Source: Clostridia bacterium
GTDB lineage: Bacteria; Bacillota; Clostridia; Oscillospirales; SIG627
Reading direction: 5' to 3'
Assembly (NCBI GenBank): GCA_017959745.1
Contig: JAGDAA010000169.1
Location: 1 to 32,293, forward strand
Length of the DNA stretch: 32,293 nucleotides
Made by a program: the position numbers and the translations under genes. The first letter of the stretch is position 1; each line of letters begins with the position of its first letter. Positions 1 to 11,601 of this stretch are shown in pieces. The notes below the pieces were generated by a model. The model was not told where the DNA came from. It ran no database searches and was given only the letters and a program-made list of their open reading frames with translations.

Positions 1-134
1 GGACGGCTGCCATTTTAGGCAGCGAGTGCTACTTCGTTGTTAGCGTTTGTGTTTAAGGTTGCAGTTTTGAAGAGTTCCTGCCACTCTACCCGCATTTCTC
101 GCTTCAAAAACCCCGTCGAAACCTTTACACCCCC
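1..134 (-). ncRNA. ssrA: tmRNA (transfer-messenger RNA), 5' part; 3' end outside window
   Basis: tmRNA rescues stalled ribosomes by acting first as a tRNA-Ala and then as a short mRNA that adds a degradation tag. On the minus strand the 5' end reads GGGGGTGTAAAGGTTTCGAC, the typical tmRNA 5' acceptor and D-like region. A tag reading frame follows, with a GCA resume codon at 60-62, ATLNTNANNEVALAA and a TAA stop at 15-17. The ending VALAA is the usual type of ClpXP signal. The tRNA-like 3' half with its T arm and CCA lies beyond position 1, so the gene is cut by the window edge, not broken. The exact resume codon is inferred from the usual alanine start of such tags. Confidence 0.93.
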
Positions 135-11274: not shown

Positions 11275-11357
11275 GCGGGTATGGCGGAATTGGCAGACGC
11301 GTCGGATTTAGGTTCCGATGGGCAACCGTGCAGGTTCAAGTCCTGTTACCCGTACCA
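11275..11357 (+). tRNA. tRNA-Leu (anticodon UAG)
   Basis: The sequence folds as a class II tRNA. The acceptor arm is GCGGGTA paired with TACCCGT (one G-U pair at position 1-72). The D arm contains AATTGGCAGA. The anticodon stem is TCGGA/TCCGA with loop TTTAGGT, giving anticodon TAG. A long variable arm, TGGGCAACCGT, is followed by the T arm GCAGG-TTCAAGT-CCTGT. The 3' CCA is encoded (11355-11357). Its long variable arm and anticodon identify leucine (CUN codons). It is the only tRNA in the window and marks the left border of the accessory stretch. Confidence 0.96.
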
Positions 11358-11398
11358 TCAAAAACGCGTGATTTGTTTATCAAATCACGCGTTTTTGA
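11358..11398 (+). terminator. Intrinsic terminator after tRNA-Leu
   Basis: A perfect 18-bp stem, TCAAAAACGCGTGATTTG and its reverse complement, with a 5-base loop TTTAT. The right arm ends in GTTTTTGA, giving a U tract in the transcript, and the matching A tract on the left arm would make it work in both directions. It starts at the base after the tRNA CCA. Confidence 0.87.
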
Positions 11399-11400
11399 AT

Positions 11401-11555
11401 CCAAGCCGACGGGAACGGAGGCTTGGTATGTCATCAGCCGCTTTGCGGCTGTATGTCATCACACCGCAGGTGTGTATGTCATCACGCGTTAGCGTGTATG
11501 TCTTCACGCGTTAGCGTGTATGTTTCCCCGTCGGCTTGATGCCATACACGCCTCC
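11401..11555. repeat. Hairpin array 1: small palindromes joined by TATGTCAT linkers
   Basis: A tandem series of five different hairpins joined by an 8-base linker. Hairpin 0 is CCAAGCC/GGCTTGG (11401-11426). The others are CAGCCGC-TTT-GCGGCTG (11435-11451), CACACC-GCA-GGTGTG (11460-11474), CACGC-GTTA-GCGTG (11483-11496) and the same again (11505-11518). Linkers TATGTCAT stand at 11427, 11452 and 11475, TATGTCTT at 11497, and TATG at 11519. The whole is also enclosed by the inverted pair CAAGCCGACGGG (11402-11413) and CCCGTCGGCTTG (11527-11538), with GGAGGC/GCCTCC further in and out. Stem sequences differ but every one is paired, so structure seems to be what is kept. There is no coding sequence. 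The repeats are too short and too palindromic for CRISPR. Confidence 0.85.
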
Positions 11556-11601
11556 GGCGCGATTCAGCTGTCGCAGGTCGGATATTTCTTTATCCGGAAA
11601 A

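Follow-up and report, generated by a model that had tools for sequence, protein, structure and literature searches.

The window, as we call the whole analysed stretch of 32,293 nucleotides, carries at about 11399-11561 a hairpin array that is probably an ORF-less, non-autonomous copy of a mobile element, which inserts in one direction behind intrinsic terminators and most often behind those that end tRNA genes. The array is real and matches the feature that an earlier note had described. The 5' part of a complete element comprises a first hairpin with two alternative partners, followed by first-half hairpins that are joined by a 7-8-nt linker. The 3' part comprises an outer-stem closing segment, second-half hairpins on reverse-complement linkers and a small four-helix-bundle ORF. 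The tRNA gene, its terminator and the parts of the window copy are arranged as follows.

11275-11357, + strand: tRNA-Leu gene; the element is inserted at its terminator (ARAGORN, Rfam RF00005)
11358-11398, + strand: intrinsic terminator of tRNA-Leu, with a perfect 18-bp stem, a 5-nt loop and a T-run end (inverted-repeat search)
11401-11426, + strand: first hairpin, CCAAGCC-loop-GGCTTGG (A:A'), with GGCTTGG at 11420-11426 (core conserved in 47 copies; one compensatory position, GC to TA)
11427-11434, + strand: first-half linker 1, TATGTCAT (sequence, linker comparison)
11435-11451, + strand: hairpin CAGCCGC-TTT-GCGGCTG (sequence, inter-linker palindrome test)
11452-11459, + strand: first-half linker 2, TATGTCAT (sequence, linker comparison)
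11460-11474, + strand: hairpin CACACC-GCA-GGTGTG (sequence, inter-linker palindrome test)
11475-11482, + strand: first-half linker 3, TATGTCAT (sequence, linker comparison)
11483-11496, + strand: hairpin CACGC-GTTA-GCGTG (sequence, inter-linker palindrome test)
11497-11504, + strand: first-half linker 4, TATGTCTT (sequence)
11505-11518, + strand: second copy of hairpin CACGC-GTTA-GCGTG, a tandem duplicate of the unit (sequence, repeat search)
11528-11538, + strand: outer-stem closing segment A'', CCGTCGGCTTG, the complement of CAAGCCGACGG at 11402-11412 (inverted repeat, folding, covariation in 37 copies)
11539-11546, + strand: second-half linker ATGCCATA, a near reverse complement of the first-half linker (sequence, linker comparison)
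11547-11561, + strand: single imperfect second-half hairpin; the rest of the second half and the ORF are missing (sequence, ORF scan)

The window copy contains TATGTCAT three times, TATGTCTT once and a degenerate fifth linker. Four hairpins follow the first one and use three distinct stems, since CACGC/GCGTG occurs twice. The second half begins at 11539 and has shrunk to one hairpin. The varied hairpins on a constant linker directly after a tRNA terminator, as claimed in the earlier note, are present, and the RNA folding of the array yields z-scores of -6.6 (+ strand) and -6.1 (- strand), with no shuffle as stable. That description was correct as far as it went, but it missed a competing local hairpin, most of the second half and the further copies. 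The protein of the family and the strict placement of its members behind terminators lay beyond what it could detect. The outer inverted pair that the note saw around the whole array is also real (11402-11412 with 11528-11538), but it spans the first half only and leaves the second half outside.

The array has the hallmarks of a structure that is maintained by selection. The local hairpin A:A' and the outer stem A:A'' are mutually exclusive, so that segment A has two competing partners. Up to A'', the predicted folding prefers the outer stem (-71.3 vs -66.2 kcal/mol). When the second half is added, the predicted minimum consists of the local hairpin together with paired first- and second-half linkers. 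A switch between the two folds is thereby predicted from the folding model. The pairing itself is conserved among the copies. Inter-linker segments were delimited without regard to pairing and scored as palindromic when 5 or more terminal pairs formed. Of 142 such segments, 108 qualify, with 49 distinct stems; shuffling leads to an expectation of 1.2, and chimeras built from two inter-linker segments pair in 9%. The outer stem, whose A'' segment was located by an anchor largely independent of the stem itself, pairs at 94% in 37 copies vs 77% with shuffled partners, and 0 of 2000 shuffles are as good. Several positions of the outer stem have changed on both sides, and one position covaries across A, A' and A'' (G/C/C to T/A/A). 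Furthermore, the linker type (TATG or TATA) is the same in both halves of all 34 elements compared. These pairing counts overstate the number of events because related sequences are not independent, and the differing linker families are a stronger test of selection on structure than the counts within a family. The claim that stems vary while pairing is kept holds across the copies, so that the check for copies whose stems freely lose pairing, one of two refuting checks set in the earlier note, did not refute it. The proposal of a structured RNA gains support from the stems, outer stem and linker complementarity, which are retained through sequence change.

The search for copies in relatives, which had been set beforehand as a refuting check, identified 39 matches to the core pattern in 26 of the 394 genomes searched across the order, and a reversed control yielded 0 matches. 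Seven cores reside in the window's own genome (77% complete), and 47 cores with their flanks were gathered for comparison. The position of these cores is highly uniform: 46 of the 47 begin 2-4 nt past the T-run of an intrinsic terminator and always on the same strand, and in the window CCAAGCC (11401) starts two bases 3' of the terminator. The upstream terminator belongs to a tRNA gene of one of many isotypes in at least 33 of the 47 cases, as defined by an adjoining ARAGORN tRNA, and several further cores are preceded by a tRNA 3' end at a contig edge. Since the terminators vary by site and the cores are conserved, we attribute only the core to the element and regard the terminator as a feature of the site. 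One orthologous site without an element has a terminator as well. On these comparisons, the terminator at 11358-11398 is the target site and lies outside the element. A loop motif, TTTTGTCTACCAAAA or TGTCTACCGACA, is common to the terminators of many occupied sites (window 11358-11398; L010, L011, L090, L141 and L154) and may be either a favoured target or simply a kind of terminator that is widespread in these bacteria.

Among the pattern matches on genome contigs, L031, L032 and L036 are relatives; L033, L034, L035 and L038 appeared unrelated, and the matches on viral contigs were just unrelated tandem or coding repeats. A DNA similarity search of plasmids and phages with the array returned no match. 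Two contigs of a phage collection bear hairpin arrays plus the ORF. Behind a tRNA-Leu gene of another genome (L044, G009:C8, 1261-2000), several elements that differ in linker type follow one another: a TATG-type, a remnant TTTCAC-type and a TATATCAT-type element. We found no publication on these arrays among openly licensed papers.

Comparison within and between genomes points to mobility. Elements of one genome resemble each other more than they resemble those of other genomes (permutation p 0.0005), and the same tRNA isotype in another genome adds little to element similarity. The counterpart of the window's tRNA-Leu, matched irrespective of gene order, is empty in two sister species. At one tRNA-Thr gene, two species of the genus are empty, a third carries a TATGG-type element with an interrupted ORF and a fourth carries an element of another linker type. 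We infer mobility from this comparative evidence. The idea of a non-autonomous mobile repeat is thus borne out by dispersal to different tRNA terminators, by the greater similarity within genomes and by absence at sister orthologous sites. Given its multiple dispersed ORF-less copies and empty orthologous sites, the window array can be regarded as MITE-like.

What protein could act on such an array? In relatives, the array leads into an ORF of about 117 codons. The ORF follows 12 of the 47 cores, and the window copy is among the 35 cores without it. One ORF-bearing copy, L036 from Ruminococcaceae bacterium RUG14132, has a core that is nearly identical to that of the window. The ORF encodes a protein of the PF05635/TIGR02436 family, known as the four-helix-bundle, S23 or 23S rRNA intervening-sequence protein, with 63-96 bits for PF05635 (curated cut-off 33.8) and 68-102 bits for TIGR02436 (cut-off 24). 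Its solved structural relatives are 2rld and 2gsc. An AlphaFold model from one input sequence is weak (mean pLDDT 64.5), and its best matches are S23-family structures with an E of about 0.002. XCC0516, a solved relative of the family protein, is a pentamer (PMC4990558). In the two unsaturated ORF pairs, dN is 0.025-0.03 vs a dS of 0.43-0.73; by this measure, the ORF is under strong purifying selection. The genomes of the second unsaturated pair belong to different families, a hint of horizontal transfer. As the ORF is missing from three quarters of the copies, it might be a passenger. No complete TATG-type copy was found in the window's own genome, which is 77% complete. At L086 (G005:C51, ~1040-1175), the four-helix ORF breaks off into a piece of a first-half hairpin array; the joint lies at the short similarity TGTATGGAA and looks like the product of template switching or of recombination between copies of the element.

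We propose that the element spreads with the help of this protein. Transcription, perhaps read-through from the tRNA gene, would yield a structured RNA, which would switch between the outer-stem form and a form with paired first- and second-half linkers. The family protein would bind the array RNA or single-stranded DNA hairpins and would help new copies to settle at terminator hairpins, and the new DNA copy may be made by host replication or repair. For ORF-less copies, such as that of the window, complete copies would provide the mobilising protein in trans. Protein binding by the array, one of the options raised in the earlier note, is likewise inferred.

The choice of host enzymes in this proposal depends on what does and does not accompany the arrays. 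In a retroelement, the array RNA and the four-helix protein would cooperate with a reverse transcriptase acting in trans, in a manner comparable to diversity-generating retroelements or group IIC introns. Group IIC introns insert in one orientation behind intrinsic terminator hairpins, and the Avd accessory protein of diversity-generating retroelements is a four-helix-bundle pentamer as well. The one-orientation insertion behind terminators and the structured RNA fit such a scheme, and the element shares target site and orientation with group IIC introns. However, it is much shorter and has neither ribozyme domains nor a reverse transcriptase; neither intron domains nor an Rfam match were found, and the structure matches of the ORF profile do not include any Avd structure. 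RVT_1 was found neither in G000 nor in 21 of the 22 family genomes, which are incomplete drafts and include the carriers G007, G009, G012, G015 and G017 at a completeness of at least 90%. We therefore consider a retroelement unlikely.

A host structure that ends or stabilises the tRNA transcript, either as a regulator or as a backup terminator, would explain why the array adjoins the 3' side of a terminator and folds strongly. This explanation is highly improbable because the array is missing at the same tRNA in sister species, a strong terminator already lies upstream, the arrays are spread over many tRNA isotypes, and a protein gene under selection follows in a quarter of cases. Rfam matches at gathering score in the window and at related loci are limited to tRNA and tmRNA, including a partial tmRNA gene that is ended by the contig edge (window 1-134, - strand; RF00023); weak matches to miRNA and sRNA families lie far under the cut-offs and were judged to be due to chance.

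Palindromes in short arrays also recall REP/BIME-like or IS200/IS605-derived repeats, which a Y1 (TnpA/RAYT) transposase would move by acting on single-stranded hairpins. REP/BIME elements are arrays of palindromic units with conserved hairpins. The element resembles them and their RAYTs in being an intergenic array of palindromic units that is apparently non-autonomous, and some relatives do contain a Y1 transposase. Its conserved part, however, is the linker and its stems vary, which is the opposite of REPs. Moreover, the arrays are accompanied by another protein family and by no consistent Y1 transposase: PF01797 was not found in the element carriers G000, G001, G005, G007 and G012, all incomplete drafts. 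Such an origin is barely credible. Since these searches found no RVT_1 in 21 of the 22 family genomes and no Y1 transposase in several carriers, and since the four-helix bundle is the only protein seen travelling with the arrays, we favour an element that moves through RNA or single-stranded DNA, is targeted to terminator hairpins, has the protein as its binding factor and leaves synthesis to host enzymes. CRISPR and coding functions were rightly set aside by the earlier note, given that the repeats are just 8 nt long vs about 23-47 nt for direct repeats and are separated by palindromic rather than unrelated spacers, and that the reading frames open across the array have no support as genes.

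Among known systems, the 23S rRNA intervening sequence and its S23 ORF come closest. Such intervening sequences are excised from the transcript by RNase III. Both systems have an extended inverted-repeat or stem-loop RNA, are scattered and apparently mobile, insert at a hairpin and, in complete copies, encode the same protein family. In contrast to an intervening sequence, which forms one long stem within a 23S rRNA helix, the element sits behind tRNA terminators, consists of many short hairpins with mirrored linkers and leaves its ORF outside the outer stem, and most copies, including that of the window, lack the S23p/IVP ORF. The window element is thus not a 23S intervening sequence because it lies outside rRNA and has no ORF. 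We conclude that the element family is related to the 23S rRNA intervening sequences. Mobility of the intervening sequences with an S23p/IVP ORF was proposed long ago and is unexplained (PMC4990558).

The association of the protein family with mirrored repeats extends beyond the window's element type. PF05635 genes of the order often follow arrays in which different linkers are mirrored in the same way (GTGAAGT/ACTTCAC, GTGATAT/ATATCAC, GTGATGT/ACATCAC and CATCRT/AYGATG), and these arrays likewise often follow terminators. At the top-scoring PF05635 loci, the linker sequences differ and the mirror rule is identical. One such other-linker array with a PF05635 gene is located in the window's own genome (L098). 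An exact-6-mer mirror test is positive in 20 of 41 IVP upstream regions, compared with 4 of the 99 control windows and 6 of the 820 shuffles. The test is blind to arrays whose linkers vary, the window's own subtype among them, and a small number of its positives may be incidental. On plasmids, the PF05635 gene has short repeats upstream and their reverse complements downstream in 14 of 16 cases vs 5 of 82 control placements, and the hosts belong to Cyanobacteria, Bacteroidota, Chloroflexota, Spirochaetota and Clostridia.

The short tandemly repeated repetitive (STRR) and small dispersed repeats of cyanobacteria are heptamer repeats that, like the element, have hairpins that keep their pairing. 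In the present analysis, heptamers and their reverse complements flank S23/IVP genes on Nostoc and other plasmids. In Clostridia, unlike in these repeats from another phylum, a hairpin stands between each linker and the next, and the ORF lies downstream of linkers in both orientations. The literature on cyanobacterial heptamer and small dispersed repeats may describe a related phenomenon. We tentatively raise the possibility, which falls short of a probable explanation, of a cross-phylum mobile class without its own transposase or reverse transcriptase, in which a mirrored-repeat RNA or single-stranded DNA and a pentameric four-helix protein would guide insertion via host machinery. Its forms would be hairpin-decorated arrays in Clostridia, bare heptamers in cyanobacteria and others, and long arms in 23S intervening sequences, and its insertion target in Clostridia would be transcript-end hairpins.

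Neither a function nor a mobility mechanism has been established for S23/IVP proteins and 23S intervening sequences in the decades since they became known, and the short palindromic and heptamer repeats of bacteria are likewise long known and unexplained. The present analysis links the two: the S23/IVP gene comes with mirrored repeat arrays, and the dispersed ORF-less arrays look like derivatives. Mobility and RNA binding become directly testable, since the target (tRNA terminators) and the minimal unit are defined and a candidate protein is at hand. If it is true that the element needs no polymerase or transposase of its own, it would represent a new way for DNA to spread.

At six plasmid loci (L117, L172, L174, L175, L179 and L182), repeat-flanked four-helix genes lie inside defence operons, next to hsdS/hsdR, DISARM/PglX, cas2/cas1 or helicase/methylase genes. 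These genes may have been inserted there or may have a role in the operon. The locus with an IVP gene between cas2 and cas1 and with flanking repeats has a context like that of the cas loci in which 23S_rRNA_IVP genes have been reported (PMC3936711).
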